Assembly: GCF_000022325.1 (NCBI RefSeq)
Contig: NC_012034.1
Location: forward strand, 2,107,501 to 2,171,500
Direction of reading: 5' to 3'
Source: Caldicellulosiruptor bescii DSM 6725
GTDB taxonomy: Bacteria > Bacillota > Thermoanaerobacteria > Caldicellulosiruptorales > Caldicellulosiruptoraceae
DNA: 64,000 bases
Shown: piece after piece, positions 19,284 to 33,496 of the stretch
Layout of the letters: every line of letters begins with the position of its first letter
How positions within the stretch are numbered: position 1 is the first letter of the stretch
Notes under the pieces: model-generated
Database searches by the model: none
Told to the model about the DNA's origin: nothing
Seen by the model: the letters and a program-made list of their open reading frames with translations, nothing else
Made by a program: the position numbers and the translations under genes

Positions 19284-19967
<684 letters not shown>

Positions 19968-20219: not shown

Positions 20220-21074
20220 ATGCGAAAAACATGTTCACCTTTACGATACCCTGGCGGAAAAACTTTTTTAAGTGATTTTATGAAAAAAGTATTGATGCAA
20301 AACAACCTTACAAATTGTATATATGCTGAACCATATGCAGGTGGCGGTGGTCTTGCTCTTTCTCTTCTGTACGAGAGGATGGTGAAAAAGATTTTGTTAA
20401 ACGACATAGACCCCGCAATTTTCTCACTTTGGTATTCAATGCTTTATTTTACTGAACAACTATGCGGTAAAATAAGAAAATGTAAAGTAGACATTAACAC
20501 ATACATTGATGTAAAAAAGAAATTTAAAACAACACATAATGTCCTGGAGTTAGGATTTGCCACGTTGTTTTTGAATCGGGTCAATCGTTCTGGTATATTG
20601 AAAGCAGGACCTATCGGTGGTTACAAGCAAGAGGGAAAGTACAAAATTGATTGCCGTTTTAATAAAGAAAAAATTATTCAGAGTATTCTTAAAATAGCTG
20701 AACAAAGAGAGAAAATAGAGATTTTTAATCTTGACGCTTTACATTTTTTAAAAGAGATAAAACAAAATTTTTCTCCAGAGGAAATTTTTATTTTTTTAGA
20801 CCCCCCGTATTATCAAAAAGGCAACGAACTTTATATGAATTTTTATAAACATGAAGATCATCAATTTTTGTGCGAATTTTTAATTACAGAACTTAGAGAC
20901 TATAAATGGATATTAACTTATGACAATTCTCCACAAATTATGGAAATGTATAAAAATAAGGTACCATTTGAATTAATTAATGTTCGATATAGTGCAAACA
21001 AAAATCGAGAGGCTATAGAATTATTGTTTTATAATAATATTGTCTTGCCAACAAACAATAAAAGGTCTGCTTAG
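20220..21074 (+). CDS. DNA adenine N6-methyltransferase (Dam/D12 class)
   Basis: 284-aa D12-class (alpha group) N6-adenine methylase. Motifs in order: RYPGGK (9-14, motif X), AEPYAGGGGLAL (36-47, AdoMet-binding motif I), NDIDP (61-65), LFLNRVNRSG (117-125) and the catalytic LDPPYYQ (193-199, DPPY motif IV). The ATG at 20220 is preferred over GTG 20202 because GAAAGGGG lies 10 nt before it. It is convergent with the NurA-HerA operon, with stops 20 nt apart and a shared terminator hairpin. The target site cannot be read; M.DpnM/Dam relatives methylate GATC. It may protect self DNA from the NurA-HerA module, or be a solitary island methylase. Confidence 0.9.
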   Translation: MRKTCSPLRYPGGKTFLSDFMKKVLMQNNLTNCIYAEPYAGGGGLALSLLYERMVKKILLNDIDPAIFSLWYSMLYFTEQLCGKIRKCKVDINTYIDVKKKFKTTHNVLELGFATLFLNRVNRSGILKAGPIGGYKQEGKYKIDCRFNKEKIIQSILKIAEQREKIEIFNLDALHFLKEIKQNFSPEEIFIFLDPPYYQKGNELYMNFYKHEDHQFLCEFLITELRDYKWILTYDNSPQIMEMYKNKVPFELINVRYSANKNREAIELLFYNNIVLPTNNKRSA

Positions 21075-21089
21075 GTATCAAGCAGACCT
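21063..21089. terminator. Bidirectional terminator between dam and nurA
   Basis: The stem AGGTCTGCTT/AAGCAGACCT (10 bp, 7-nt loop) is followed by TCTTGCTATTTT on plus. The minus side is less T-rich. It overlaps the methylase stop codon. Confidence 0.7.
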
Positions 21090-21093
21090 CTTG

Positions 21094-22467
21094 CTATTTT
21101 ATAAGCTCTCTGGCAAACATCTCCAATATTTGTTTGCTCGGTTTTAAGCTAATAGAAGCATAACGATGGGCTAACGCAACAGGCAATATTGCATCTTCGT
21201 ATAAGTCAGTAGTTATCTTATTAATCAAATCCAAAACAGTGGGAAGTGTTGAGTATGAATCAATATTGAAAATCATTTTTTCATAGTATTCTTTCTTTTT
21301 CTCATCGACGGAATAAGGTAGAGAAACCACAAATTTTTTGGCTTCCTTAGAATAGAACAAAAAATCCTGTCCCCAGCTAATTTCTTGACCAAAATATTCA
21401 TTTCGCTTAGGTCTTTGCTGAATATATTTAAATCTATATGCATCACTTACTAACATAACTGCATTTTTAGGAATCTCTTCTCCTATTTCTTTCATTCTCC
21501 TTTCAAGCAGTTCAAAGTGGTCTTTTAGTCTGCCGCTTTTAGCTAATCCAAAAATTATTAAAGGAGTATTTTTGTTTTGCATCAGCTTATGGTAATATTT
21601 CAAAATATATCTATGTAACTTTGCTGGTTCGCCGTATATTGCCAATGGACGATCTAAAATAAAGGCCATTGAAAAAGGTAGAGAAACTAATGTTTGGTTA
21701 CTTAAACAAGTCTGAATAAGATTAAATACGAGTAAATGTTCCACAACTTGCGTTAAGCGCGAAAGTATTGAGGTGCTTTCAAAATCTTCTTCAACTGCTT
21801 CATGCAGTCGTAACCAATCAGTTAAATACACCTCTTCCCCACACCCAGGACATTTTTTTGGATTAATATTGTCTTTTTCTAAGTCCCATTCAATGTGTTC
21901 GTTACACTCTGGATTTGGACAATTAAATGATTCAACAGTTTTGTCATTACCTTCTTTTAAAATTGTATAGAGTGTGTTAATTAAAGGTAATGTTTCATCG
22001 AATGGTTTGTTGCACATGAATTTATAAATTGCATAGCGAATAGATTGAGATGTTGTAGTTTTACCCTCTTCAATTATATTAGCAAGAGGACCAACAAAAG
22101 TAAGTAAACCAGTAGTGTAAGTGTCATTGAATTCGTGGGGATCTAGAAATTCATATTGAGCACTTTTTTTTAATTCATCTAACTTAACAACTGATGCACA
22201 AAAGTTAGCAATACCTATTCTTGCAGAAGGAATATTGTTGTTTATGGGAATGTCAGTATATGATCCATCTACCGCAAAAACGATTTTCACGTTTTTTGAA
22301 GCATCTTCAGTATCGATTATTCTAAACATTTGTCTAATTTCCGAGGTTATGTCTCTATTTGGAGTATCATAAGCCACTCTTAACTCTTTAAGTCTCTTTT
22401 GAAATTCAGGATTTTTAATCAAGCGCTCATGCATTATTTTGTTCGAAAATTCACCTTTATAAGGCAT
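21094..22467 (-). CDS. NurA-domain nuclease with zinc-ribbon insertion
   Basis: 457 aa. NurA nucleases (RNase H-like fold, Mn-dependent 5'-3' activity) work with the HerA translocase. Features seen: KIVFAVDGSYTDIP with metal-binding Asp67 (NurA motif I), AFILDRPLAIYG (Asp272) and the C-terminal ILPVALAHRYASIS (427-440). Between them is a four-Cys zinc ribbon (C183-x4-C188 ... C206-x2-C209), not part of the minimal NurA fold. The ATG at 22467 follows AGAGGTGATG; the gene lies 29 nt after herA in the same operon. Bacterial HerA-NurA pairs are best known in defence islands. The NurA assignment rests on motifs and partner, not a search. Confidence 0.75.
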   Translation of the reverse strand: MPYKGEFSNKIMHERLIKNPEFQKRLKELRVAYDTPNRDITSEIRQMFRIIDTEDASKNVKIVFAVDGSYTDIPINNNIPSARIGIANFCASVVKLDELKKSAQYEFLDPHEFNDTYTTGLLTFVGPLANIIEEGKTTTSQSIRYAIYKFMCNKPFDETLPLINTLYTILKEGNDKTVESFNCPNPECNEHIEWDLEKDNINPKKCPGCGEEVYLTDWLRLHEAVEEDFESTSILSRLTQVVEHLLVFNLIQTCLSNQTLVSLPFSMAFILDRPLAIYGEPAKLHRYILKYYHKLMQNKNTPLIIFGLAKSGRLKDHFELLERRMKEIGEEIPKNAVMLVSDAYRFKYIQQRPKRNEYFGQEISWGQDFLFYSKEAKKFVVSLPYSVDEKKKEYYEKMIFNIDSYSTLPTVLDLINKITTDLYEDAILPVALAHRYASISLKPSKQILEMFARELIK

Positions 22468-22496
22468 AAGTTCATCACCTCTCTTTTGTGCAAATA

Positions 22497-24599
22497 CTAT
22501 CTATTTAATGTAAAATCTGAAAATTTATAAATTTGAACAGGACAAACAAAAGGAGAAGATAAAGTTTTCATTCTACAAAAACCCACATCCTTCGCTAACA
22601 AAATAGATTCTTTAAAGTCAGCAAAATCATAATATTTGGCAACAGTTTTAATTTCCTCTTCATTATTTAAATGTGTAACAAACCAGTTTTCAGTATTTGC
22701 AAGAATATTCTTGTTTATAGTTGATGGTTCTTGTGTTGAATAGACAAGACCTATGTTATATTTAGCACCTTCTTTTGCAATTCTTGGCCATATATCTGTA
22801 ACATCCATGTCTTTGCCAATTAAATTATGGGCTTCCTCAATGTAAAAAATGACGTATGGTGGTTCTTCTGCTCTTGTGAAAATTTGCTGATTGTAGTTAA
22901 ATATTTCGTAAGCAATCTTAGAACTTATAATTTTTCTCATTCGTTCGTTACCGTAAACCATATCTATTAGAACAACATCTCCATTCCTAACTTTTTCAAT
23001 TATCGTTTGAATATAATTGCTTTTATCTTTCTGGTGATAATCTTTTATTTGAATTTTTCGCAGTAAAGAATAACCAAGAATAGTTTGTCCTGAAGAATTT
23101 CGTCTTACAGCGAAATTTACAAGTGTTTCAAAATCACCTCGGTAAAGATTGTTTCCGCTAGAGGTTTTTATGTTTTTACCTAACTTGGTACAAATGAAAT
23201 GGATTGTGTCCAAAATAAAGTCAAATTCATCTATTGTGAAACTGCTCTTTCTTGTTATATCTCTTAGACGTTGCAAACGTTCCAACCTTTCTTTTAGGTC
23301 CTGTTTTATTCTACCTTTTTCATCTTGGTTATCATCTGTACTACTAAGAATATTTTCCATCTCGGAATATACTGTCTGACCAAAAACATTTTTATCAAAT
23401 TCAACATTTGGTTCATCTAAACTTTTTGCCAAAATTAATTTGTAAACTTCAAGTATTCTTTTAGCCCTTTTCTTTTCTTCAGGCTGTCCATTTTTTAAAT
23501 CATATTCGTATGCGCTAATATCAACGTTAAGGAATGCTTGTGCGTCTGTTGAATAACTTAATGCTCCTTCTTTTTCTGCTAATGCCCGAATAAGTTCATG
23601 GGCAAGACTTAAATTCTTTAACATATCAAACTTTAACGGTTGAATTTCTTGATTTTCACTACTTAGAGCTCTCGGATTTAGAGTTAAAACAAAACAATTT
23701 TCTATCTCGACAGAAATTGACTTATTTTCATCTTGTTTGTTAGGATATATATATTCACCATTAATATCAAAAATTATTTGGGATACTTTTAGTCCAGACT
23801 TCTGAGCAGCTTCGCGAATAGCTTTAATTAAAATTTTAGCAGTATTTGATTTTCCCGTTCGAGTCATACCGAATAATGCTGTTCTCCTTTTAATAAAGTC
23901 ATCAAGATTGATGTATACTCGTGCTTTAGAAGGTTCTTGATTTTGTAAACGACATGTAGAAGTATATCGAACATAACCAATTGGAACTAAAGACGCATTT
24001 TGGAGAACTTCATTTTGTTTTTTCATAACAGCAAAATTTATAATGCTTTCTAAACCTTCATTTGAAGGTTTAAAAACAAATAAAATTTTTGCACCATAGT
24101 AATTTTCCAAATCAGAGCCAAATTCCAATGAATTATTCTCAGAAGGATAGAATGTACCAAGAATTCGGCATTTTAAGCCAGCATATTGTATTTCATTTCG
24201 AGAAAAATCATCAAAACTCAAATCCTCTTTTAATTCACGAGTTCCTACGTTCTTAAATTTATCAATTTTAGCCATTAACCAAACATCCTCATTCGGTAAT
24301 TCATATTCTTCTGTCACACGGAGTAATATAATCTCTGGTATTTCTTTGGTGGGATCAATGTTAAAATCATTTGTGTCCTTGTCATAAATCAACCATCTTG
24401 GTGAAGCGGCAAATAAAAAGCTATTGTGTGGCAAACCATTTGCTCTTTCTTTCCATGCATCATTTGTAAGAACAGTCATGAAGGAGTAAGAAACATCAAT
24501 AGCATAACCAATAAACCTAGCATTTTGAACAATGTTAAGAAGTTGTTTTACCACTTCGCTTTCCTTACTTATTTCATTTATTACTTTTCTCATGTCCAT
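22497..24599 (-). CDS. HerA-like hexameric DNA translocase (FtsK/HerA ATPase)
   Basis: 700 aa. Predicted hexameric ring ATPase that pumps dsDNA and feeds the NurA nuclease encoded next. The N-terminal about 230 residues fit a HAS-barrel-type domain (VPIGYVRYTSTCRLQ near 205-219). Walker A is GMTRTGKSNTAK (244-255), Walker B VIFYIEEAH (583-591), and a sensor-like YSTQEPS lies at 620-626. A helical insertion (about 370-530) is longer than in archaeal HerA, which is usually 500-600 aa. ATG 24599 has AAGGAGGT 12 nt upstream. An upstream 8-bp hairpin (24650-24668) may be regulatory. Confidence 0.85.
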   Translation of the reverse strand: MDMRKVINEISKESEVVKQLLNIVQNARFIGYAIDVSYSFMTVLTNDAWKERANGLPHNSFLFAASPRWLIYDKDTNDFNIDPTKEIPEIILLRVTEEYELPNEDVWLMAKIDKFKNVGTRELKEDLSFDDFSRNEIQYAGLKCRILGTFYPSENNSLEFGSDLENYYGAKILFVFKPSNEGLESIINFAVMKKQNEVLQNASLVPIGYVRYTSTCRLQNQEPSKARVYINLDDFIKRRTALFGMTRTGKSNTAKILIKAIREAAQKSGLKVSQIIFDINGEYIYPNKQDENKSISVEIENCFVLTLNPRALSSENQEIQPLKFDMLKNLSLAHELIRALAEKEGALSYSTDAQAFLNVDISAYEYDLKNGQPEEKKRAKRILEVYKLILAKSLDEPNVEFDKNVFGQTVYSEMENILSSTDDNQDEKGRIKQDLKERLERLQRLRDITRKSSFTIDEFDFILDTIHFICTKLGKNIKTSSGNNLYRGDFETLVNFAVRRNSSGQTILGYSLLRKIQIKDYHQKDKSNYIQTIIEKVRNGDVVLIDMVYGNERMRKIISSKIAYEIFNYNQQIFTRAEEPPYVIFYIEEAHNLIGKDMDVTDIWPRIAKEGAKYNIGLVYSTQEPSTINKNILANTENWFVTHLNNEEEIKTVAKYYDFADFKESILLAKDVGFCRMKTLSSPFVCPVQIYKFSDFTLNR

Positions 24600-28627: not shown

Positions 28628-29215
28628 TCAACTTGTGTCATAATACCACTTCCTATGCGGCACAAGAATACCATACGCAATAACTACTTCGTATAATACT
28701 CCAGGATTATCAACATTACCAGTATCCCTAATATTATTAAATTTCAATTCAAGTTTCCCACCTTTTTGAGTTTCAACAACAGATGCAATCTCCTTTTCAG
28801 ATGAATTATAATTATTCTCAATAATGTTTAATATTTCCATTTTGTATGCGCAGTTGTCGCCTTGAATAAAAGCCCATTCTTCTTGGGCAATAGTGTATCG
28901 CATAGCTTCAAATAAACAATGGAATACATTTTTGAAATGTACAAATCCATATTTCCAATACCTTGTTATAAAATTTTTTATCTTGTTTATTTTATTTGTT
29001 GTCAAAATTAGATGAAAATGGGGTCTTGAAGTTTTTTTAACCCCATTTTCAATCTTTGATTTTGAAAAAGAAAAATATACCGCATAATTTACTTTCTCTT
29101 TTTTACAAAAAGTTCTAAGCAAATTTAAAAAATTTTTTGCTAACTTTTTGTATGATTCTATTTTATCTAAATATTTGTTATTCAAAGTTAATGTAATCAA
29201 ATAATTCTTTACCAT
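28628..29215 (-). CDS. HUH endonuclease, plasmid Rep-like
   Basis: 195 aa from ATG 29215, chosen because GAGGAGGGTTAAGGG precedes it (a longer frame opens at 29248). The HUH metal motif is seen as RPHFHLILTT (His66, His68). A conserved-looking Tyr107 in EAMRYTIAQEEW is a candidate nicking residue. Size and motif resemble rolling-circle Rep proteins. It sits divergent from the integrase, suggesting an integrative element that nicks and replicates itself after excision. Family placement is inference; Rep and mobilisation relaxase cannot be told apart here. Confidence 0.55.
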   Translation of the reverse strand: MVKNYLITLTLNNKYLDKIESYKKLAKNFLNLLRTFCKKEKVNYAVYFSFSKSKIENGVKKTSRPHFHLILTTNKINKIKNFITRYWKYGFVHFKNVFHCLFEAMRYTIAQEEWAFIQGDNCAYKMEILNIIENNYNSSEKEIASVVETQKGGKLELKFNNIRDTGNVDNPGVLYEVVIAYGILVPHRKWYYDTS

Positions 29216-29330
29216 TCCCTTAACCCTCCTCAAAAAAATTTGGTTCAAAATAAAAAAAGCAGAGGAAATCAGTCCTCTGCCTTAATAAGCTATAGACAAA
29301 CTCTTTTATTTCTGGTTGATGAAAGAGGGG

Positions 29331-29412: not shown

Positions 29413-30591
29413 ATGGGAAGGCGCGGTAAAGGTGAAGGTAGTATTTTCAAAAGAAAAGATGGAAGATGGTGTGGCTTTATTACTGTTGGCTATGATGAAA
29501 AAGGAAATCAAAAAAAGAAATTCTTTTACGGCAAAACAAGGCAGGAAGTTGCTGAAAAAATAAATCAAGCACTAAATGAAATTAAACAAGGAATTTTAAT
29601 AACTGACAATAATATTACACTTGAAAATTGGCTTAACATCTGGCTGCATCAGTACAAAAAAAATCAAATTAGTGAATCAACTTTTGATGATTATGAAAGC
29701 ATAATAAAAAATCACATAAATCCTGTACTTGAAAAATATAACCTCAAAGATTTGCGTCCAGAACATCTACAAATGCTTTACAATGAAAAACATAAAGCAG
29801 GTCTTTCGACAAAAAGAATCAAGGATATTCATGTCATCCTACATTCAGCTTTAAATCAAGCAATTAAAAACGGACTCATTGTACGAAATGTCAGTGAAGC
29901 AACCACCTTACCAAAAAACACCAGAGAAAAGGAAATGAAAGTTTTGACAATAGAAGAACAGAAAAGATTTCTGCAGGTACTTGAAGGTGAAAGATTGAAA
30001 CCTGCCTTTGTTCTTGCCTTGAGTACTGGAATGCGACTGGGAGAAATTTTGGCTTTGAAGTGGCAAGATGTCGATTTAGAAAACAAAAGAATTACTATTA
30101 GAAATTCTGTCCGCAGGATAAAAAACAGGAATGAGCAGTCAGAAATTAAAACTAAAACTGTTCTTGTTCTTAAAGAACCTAAAACCGAAAATTCTGGAAG
30201 AATAATTCCACTGCCAGATGTTGCCTATCAAGAACTTGTTAATTTCAAACTATTGCAGGAAGAAGAAAAAAGACAAGCAGGTAGTAGCTACGTAGATAGT
30301 GGTTTTGTCTTTACAACCAAAGTTGGAACACCTATTGAGCCAAGAAACTTCCTGCGGACATTTTACCGTATTACAGAAAAAGCAGGACTTAATATTAACT
30401 TCCATGCTCTAAGACACACATTTGCAACAAGACTTTTAGAAGCAAACACTAACCCTAAAGTTGTTCAAGAGCTGCTGGGACACAGTGATATATCAACCAC
30501 ATTGAATATTTATTCGCATGTATTGTTTGACACAAAACAGAAAGCTATTGGGGAAATTAATGATTTAATGAAAAATCTTACCAATGAATGA
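29413..30591 (+). CDS. Tyrosine-family integrase of the genomic island
   Basis: 392-aa phage-type site-specific recombinase. An N-terminal AP2-like arm-binding domain (GEGSIFKRKDGRWCGFITVG, 7-26) and SAM-like core-binding domain (TLENWLNIWLHQY ...) precede the catalytic domain with the full set Arg208 (STGMRLGE), His331-x2-Arg334 (HALRHTFA), His357 (LLGHSD) and nucleophile Tyr367 (TLNIYSHV). ATG 29413 follows GGGAGAGATGTAAGA. It lies 180 bp from a tRNA-Arg 3' fragment, the expected attachment site, so it is the integrase that inserted the island. Intact. Confidence 0.95.
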   Translation: MGRRGKGEGSIFKRKDGRWCGFITVGYDEKGNQKKKFFYGKTRQEVAEKINQALNEIKQGILITDNNITLENWLNIWLHQYKKNQISESTFDDYESIIKNHINPVLEKYNLKDLRPEHLQMLYNEKHKAGLSTKRIKDIHVILHSALNQAIKNGLIVRNVSEATTLPKNTREKEMKVLTIEEQKRFLQVLEGERLKPAFVLALSTGMRLGEILALKWQDVDLENKRITIRNSVRRIKNRNEQSEIKTKTVLVLKEPKTENSGRIIPLPDVAYQELVNFKLLQEEEKRQAGSSYVDSGFVFTTKVGTPIEPRNFLRTFYRITEKAGLNINFHALRHTFATRLLEANTNPKVVQELLGHSDISTTLNIYSHVLFDTKQKAIGEINDLMKNLTNE

Positions 30592-33420: not shown

Positions 33421-33496
33421 AGGGGCGTAGCTCAATTGGTAGAGTAGCGGTCTCCAAAACCGTTGGCTGGGGGTTCGAGTCCCTCCGCCCCTGCCA
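33421..33496 (+). tRNA. trnW: tRNA-Trp (anticodon CCA)
   Basis: 76 nt with encoded CCA. Acceptor AGGGGCG/CGCCCCT, D-arm with AGCTCAATTGGTAGAGT, anticodon stem GCGGT/ACCGT with loop CTCCAAA (anticodon CCA at 33454-33456), T-arm GGGGG-TTCGAGT-CCCTC. It lies on the strand opposite to the sugar genes on both sides. Confidence 0.96.

Follow-up and report, generated by a model that had tools for sequence, protein, structure and literature searches.

The HerA and NurA protein families were first described in DNA-end resection. The solved structures 8wet, 8wfd and 8y1k are those of TdpAB(C), a phosphorothioation-gated anti-phage complex of Thermus. In archaea, the solved HerA-NurA complex contains six HerA and two NurA subunits and digests both strands of dsDNA from the ends; the degradation of both strands has prompted the suggestion that the pair may be antiviral (PMC12977600). 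PD-lambda-5, an anti-phage system of E. coli prophages, is a compacted R-M and Abi system in whose description HerA-NurA is unmentioned (PMC9519451). Studies of an SXT ICE (PMC7251087) and of HerA/FtsK capture (PMC10853773, PMC12839542) describe other systems. No description of a methyltransferase-HerA-NurA trio turned up in the open-access literature searched, and earlier notice is possible in subscription papers, which lay mostly outside this search.

The window analyzed here, a stretch of 64,000 nucleotides, spans bases 2107501-2171500 of the 2,919,718-bp chromosome of Caldicellulosiruptor bescii DSM 6725. It carries such a trio, which we interpret, with a probability of roughly 0.7, as a methylation-coupled, restriction-modification-like candidate defence module residing on mobile elements, with a predicted defence activity. 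The genome totals 2,931,662 bases in three contigs, the smaller two adding up to 11,944 bases, and two native plasmids of 8.3 and 3.65 kb are on record (PMC3643907). The features of the locus are as follows, with the basis of each call in brackets.

20220..21074, plus strand: D12-class N6-adenine DNA methyltransferase, 284 aa (ORF list, Pfam, PADLOC)
21060..21092, no strand: bidirectional intrinsic terminator at the 3' ends of the convergent methyltransferase and nuclease genes (stem-loop pattern match)
21094..22467, minus strand: NurA/TdpB-like nuclease, 457 aa (Pfam NurA, fold of the model, D67)
21835..21921, minus strand: zinc-ribbon-like insert of the nuclease, C183, C188, C206 and C209 (cysteine conservation)
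22497..24599, minus strand: HerA/TdpA-like, hexameric-type DNA translocase, 700 aa (DUF87, TdpA match, motifs)

An earlier, sequence-only reading located the three genes correctly: each is there and intact, and their open frames retain the catalytic motifs. The same reading described the methyltransferase as convergent with the HerA-NurA pair across a single terminator, an arrangement that we recover: the ends of the convergent genes hold a perfect 10-bp stem-loop on the plus strand (21063-21089) and one of 14 pairs on the minus strand (21060-21092), each with a T-rich tail, and both strands score as terminator-like. This call is a pattern match, in a region that holds three terminator-like sites against 2.4 expected in shuffled sequences.

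The trio sits in an insertion sequence graveyard of IS21, IS110, Mutator/IS256 and DUF772 transposases, alongside genes for an integrase and a Rep protein. The Rep gene (REP_ORF2-G2P, 28628-29248) and the phage-type tyrosine integrase (29413-30591), with a tRNA-Trp further on (33421-33496), possibly mark the end of an integrated element. Fragments of a replication-like protein lie upstream of the methyltransferase (19284-19967); an intact counterpart of 487 aa occurs upstream of a decayed copy of the module in another Caldicellulosiruptor genome, near a VirD4/TraG-type coupling gene (L015:3310-7533). The trio may travel as cargo on a conjugative element.

Assignment of the three proteins

The translocase matches Pfam DUF87/HerA (E 7.7e-14) and carries a Walker A motif (GMTRTGKSN with K250, 23844-23870) and a Walker B motif (YIEEAH, 22827-22844), both invariant in homologues. 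Its best solved relative is TdpA (8wet_A; E 1.1e-20 with a single sequence, 7.4e-27 with a profile), and it falls far short of the NCBIfam HerA equivalogs, scoring 48.5 and 46.6 bits where 800 and 970 are required. A structural model of this protein was set aside as too poor (pLDDT 54.7).

Part of the 457-aa protein scores above the Pfam NurA cut-off (E 5.5e-6, 26.5 bits, cut-off 21), and a relative in L036 matches the whole NurA domain at 76.9 bits. Residue D67 of its VDGS motif (22267-22269) is invariant in 15 diverse sequences, and we infer that it corresponds to the essential active-site Asp49 of Thermococcus kodakarensis NurA (PMC12977600). Within the zinc-ribbon-like insert, C206 is fully and C183 nearly invariant, the latter missing in L036, and the insert probably binds metal. 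Since PDB sequence searches with the protein and its profile returned only noise (PPR repeats, zinc fingers), folds were compared instead. The AlphaFold model is moderate (pLDDT 70, pTM 0.73); its best Foldseek match is TdpB (8wfd_G; probability 1.00, E 1.8e-6, TMt 0.56). VIA gives a Z of 17.3 over 317 residues for TdpB (rmsd 6.6), compared with 11.1 for Sulfolobus NurA, 10.6 for Deinococcus NurA and 10.4 for a further NurA crystal structure, 3taz. The NurA identity first proposed from sequence is therefore borne out by both the Pfam score and the proximity of the model to the NurA-fold TdpB. No PADLOC model matches the nuclease.

The methyltransferase begins at an ATG (20220, 284 aa) or at an in-frame GTG (20202, 290 aa). 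Its DPPYY motif (residues 194-198, nucleotides 20799-20813) is invariant in homologues except for the last Tyr, and the protein passes the Pfam MethyltransfD12 cut-off (E 2.1e-15). The best named model is PD-Lambda-5_B of PADLOC (352.7 bits, E 3.5e-106), which also matches the methyltransferase of a Vibrio prophage copy at 398 bits; the B model is the only one of the PD-Lambda-5 set to match, HerA and NurA matching none. Adenine methylation of GATC blocks MboI. Chromosomal DNA of C. bescii DSM6725 is cut by MboI (PMC3679861 Table 1), so the enzyme is not acting as a GATC Dam. The original ‘Dam methylase’ label is withdrawn, and a Dam or GATC role rejected, on this published cutting and on a score of 67.5 bits against the dam model TIGR00571, below its cut-off of 114.85. 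The C. bescii genome encodes four D12 genes, the one in the window included; the other three (G000:C1:1681625-1682383, 2580343-2581056 and 1752308-1752760) are present despite the cutting of C. bescii DNA at GATC.

Linkage of the methyltransferase to HerA-NurA

The conserved co-occurrence of the methyltransferase with herA-nurA, anticipated from the single locus, is found across genomes. Among 21 distinct loci having both HerA and NurA, 17 encode a methyltransferase at a gap of -31 to +91 bp, among them loci on a haloarchaeal plasmid, a Deferribacter megaplasmid and a Vibrio prophage. A set of 398 genomes, chosen as relatives, contains nine with a full-length nuclease gene, each of which has a methyltransferase (eight intact, and a single fragment that adjoins a truncated HerA). 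Of 20 loci of other HerA families that the same scan fetched, none has a methyltransferase within 2 kb and one has it at 2.1 kb, a rough control that used only the three methyltransferase profiles made here and a set containing near-duplicates. On the conserved adjacency over the 21 loci, the idea of a chance neighbour was rejected.

The remaining four loci comprise three related cyanobacterial plasmids and L043, where a D12 gene lies 2.1 kb off on the opposite strand. Neither a D12 nor an N6_N4 methyltransferase was detected anywhere on the three plasmids (L030, L031, L032), whose HerA-NurA could depend on a methyltransferase of the chromosome or on a different mark. Each of these plasmids encodes an XRE regulator plus a HerA-NurA pair of the window's family, and the Nostoc plasmid has AbiTii directly after it.

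The module is patchy within the genus Caldicellulosiruptor (3 of 12 genomes). Relatives at ~55% identity occur in two other Caldicellulosiruptor genomes and on one Thermoanaerobacterium MAG contig, and relatives at 25-40% in Thermincola, an uncultured Clostridium, another MAG and viral contigs; a Vibrio prophage, a haloarchaeal plasmid and a Deferribacter megaplasmid carry the module as well. The carriers are plasmids, a prophage, viral contigs and integrase- or Rep-bearing islands, one of them beside type I R-M genes. A scan of genome contigs returned four loci only, because its patterns came from the N-terminus; neither a wide alignment nor the Vibrio protein brought up any match, and a search of E. 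coli genomes for the Vibrio prophage copy found none at megablast level. In Thermincola (L014:10070-13524), a methyltransferase-HerA-NurA operon is preceded by two serine recombinases and followed by a UvrD-type helicase, a RecB/Cas4-like protein and the type I R-M genes, so that the module takes a longer form within a defence island. In the Vibrio cyclitrophicus prophage (L034:1-5751), the module comes right after the integrase, and its proteins are annotated as hypothetical.

The identity of the methyltransferase varies around a constant effector pair. Most loci encode a D12 enzyme of the window's type, L044, L045 and L047 a D12 enzyme of the canonical, Dam-like kind (Pfam D12 E 1e-49 to 2e-54), and L029, L033, L036 and L037 a permuted N6_N4_Mtase in the same slot. 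The NurA tree mostly parts the groups by methyltransferase type, though L038 (D12) groups with L029 (N6_N4) at a support of 0.90. Gene order varies as well, between methyltransferase-HerA-NurA, HerA-NurA-methyltransferase and the convergent arrangement of the window and the Vibrio prophage. Within the D12 set, the distances between methyltransferases correlate with those between the NurA proteins (Mantel r 0.907, p 5e-5, n=10), which indicates that the two travel together. Between the intact relatives L011 and L013, dN/dS is 0.13 for HerA, 0.16 for the methyltransferase and 0.20 for NurA, which shows purifying selection. A linkage that survives both enzyme exchange and reordering argues that the methyltransferase is functionally required; this is the strongest argument available, and adjacency kept through replacement argues for a modification-restriction pair.

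The same observations bear on a role in DNA-end processing or repair, in which HerA-NurA would resect ends, the role put forward for the archaeal and Deinococcus pairs, and the methyltransferase would be a chance neighbour or an epigenetic regulator. Pfam does assign both window proteins to the NurA and HerA families. However, the adjacency conserved through replacement and changes of gene order, the patchy spread within the genus, a nuclease fold nearer to TdpB than to other NurA proteins (Z of ~11 or less), and the possibly antiviral, both-strand degradation by even the archaeal pair make this role very unlikely.

Decayed copies are informative about the methyltransferase within a modification-restriction pair. 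The second and third copies in one Caldicellulosiruptor genome (L015, L016) have lost HerA and retain a truncated NurA; in the Deferribacter megaplasmid (L033:2141-5939), HerA is broken by an IS200/IS605 element with TnpB; and in the Vibrio prophage, HerA is split into two overlapping frames. The methyltransferase is intact in all of these four informative cases, and no locus was seen with an intact HerA-NurA and a broken methyltransferase. Survival of the methyltransferase in decayed copies is what a protective methyltransferase predicts. It would also be expected of an abortive-infection or addiction module, in which HerA-NurA poisons any DNA that loses its methylation, the host's included, and the methyltransferase serves chiefly as antidote; such a module would retain its element and kill cells whose methylation a phage has disturbed. 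The finding of the module in plasmids, in a prophage and in an island with an integrase fits this as well. Yet four cases are few, and genomics cannot separate addiction from restriction, the gene content being identical; we consider addiction unlikely, and favour methylation-coupled restriction-modification.

Proposed function and published host data

As a methylation-coupled restriction-modification module, the trio would operate in several steps. The D12 methyltransferase, judging by its enzyme class, would place N6-methyladenine on resident target sites, which in C. bescii are not GATC. A hexameric HerA ring on dsDNA would carry a dimer of the nuclease, whose homology and NurA fold are documented above and whose activity is predicted. 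ATP hydrolysis by HerA would then feed DNA into the nuclease for digestion of both strands, as in the solved relatives. By analogy with TdpAB, modification would spare resident DNA, and unmodified DNA would be consumed. Solved HerA-NurA starts at the ends of dsDNA, which makes the linear DNA of an incoming phage, and not a closed circle, its likely target.

The pairing of two unrelated methyltransferase families with one effector pair suggests either a generic reading of methylation or a methyltransferase that recruits or gates the effector. This exchangeability suggests an effector without a fixed target-recognition domain of its own. One tentative and rather doubtful form of the mechanism is a methyl-gated, end-loading exonuclease for which methylated sites act as stop signs, in a Chi-like manner: its sensor would be motif-blind, so methyltransferases of different families could be swapped in, and it would attack linear phage DNA and ignore circular plasmids.

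Published work on C. bescii bears on what the module can do. Deletion of cbeI alone allows the host to accept an unmethylated E. coli plasmid at ~1000 transformants per microgram (PMC3679861). If that strain keeps the module, the module is no barrier to this plasmid, which is circular, Dam-methylated and possibly without a site. The sequence-only reading, in which the methylase marks self DNA and HerA-NurA destroys whatever is unmarked, accordingly survives in part: the predicted co-occurrence and the true NurA stand, and the Dam label and the general barrier to foreign DNA do not. Transformability fits a machine that needs DNA ends, but other explanations would do as well: the plasmid may lack the site, E. 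coli Dam may protect it, the strain may not have the module, or the module may be dead.

The last of these would make the trio a relic, real in relatives and silent or dead in C. bescii, as the decayed insertion sequences all around and the unblocked transformation after cbeI loss could also be read. Against this, the three frames are open with invariant catalytic motifs, and dN/dS of the methyltransferase is 0.21 relative to L015. A relic is highly improbable.

If methylation-coupled restriction by the trio is correct, DNA methylation would label self and a translocating HerA-NurA nuclease would carry out the attack, a pairing that dispenses with a restriction enzyme. It would account for the residence of repair-annotated HerA-NurA pairs on plasmids and prophages, and would name a widespread system that current defence-gene models (PADLOC) do not label as a unit. 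It would also offer a handle on how a ring translocase recognises whether DNA is modified, since methyltransferases of at least two unrelated families accompany this effector and phosphorothioation accompanies its Tdp relatives.

Comparison with known systems

Several identities were set aside: type II R-M for want of an endonuclease, a Dam gene by the dam score, and a repair-type HerA-NurA by the curated HerA score. Like a type II restriction-modification system, the locus pairs a self-marking D12 methyltransferase with a DNA-destroying partner. Unlike in that system, the partner is an ATP-driven translocating nuclease, and no classical restriction endonuclease was found among the trio or the scanned flanking genes. 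The likeness to PD-lambda-5 lies in a model match: that of its B component, a methyltransferase, is the best PADLOC match of the methyltransferases in the window and the Vibrio prophage. HerA-DUF4297 (PMC11291478) and SIR2-HerA/Nezha (PMC12948488) likewise build anti-phage complexes from a HerA ATPase and an effector enzyme, whereas the effector in the window is a NurA-fold nuclease with a linked, self-marking methyltransferase.

The archaeal and Deinococcus HerA-NurA pairs represent the same two protein families. The window pair differs from them in scoring below the HerA equivalog cut-offs, in its zinc-ribbon-like insert, in its linked methyltransferase and in its mobile setting. The kinship with archaeal HerA-NurA originally drawn from sequence was thus right about both families, but the nearest relative in sequence and fold is TdpAB, not the archaeal repair pair.

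TdpA and TdpB are the closest solved relatives of the window pair and share its composition of a HerA-like translocase and a NurA-fold nuclease. The difference lies in the modification gene, which in the window's family encodes a DNA methyltransferase (D12 or N6_N4) instead of a phosphorothioation enzyme. Wherever a linked modification gene was found, it was a methyltransferase. A linked Dnd-type phosphorothioation pathway was dropped for C. bescii, as a DndC homologue (TIGR03183) is absent from the genome and the genes flanking the trio are insertion sequences. By analogy, methylation seems to replace phosphorothioation in the window module. We would therefore rate the trio, on its likeness to TdpAB, as a putative modification-gated HerA-NurA restriction system that uses methylation in place of phosphorothioation.
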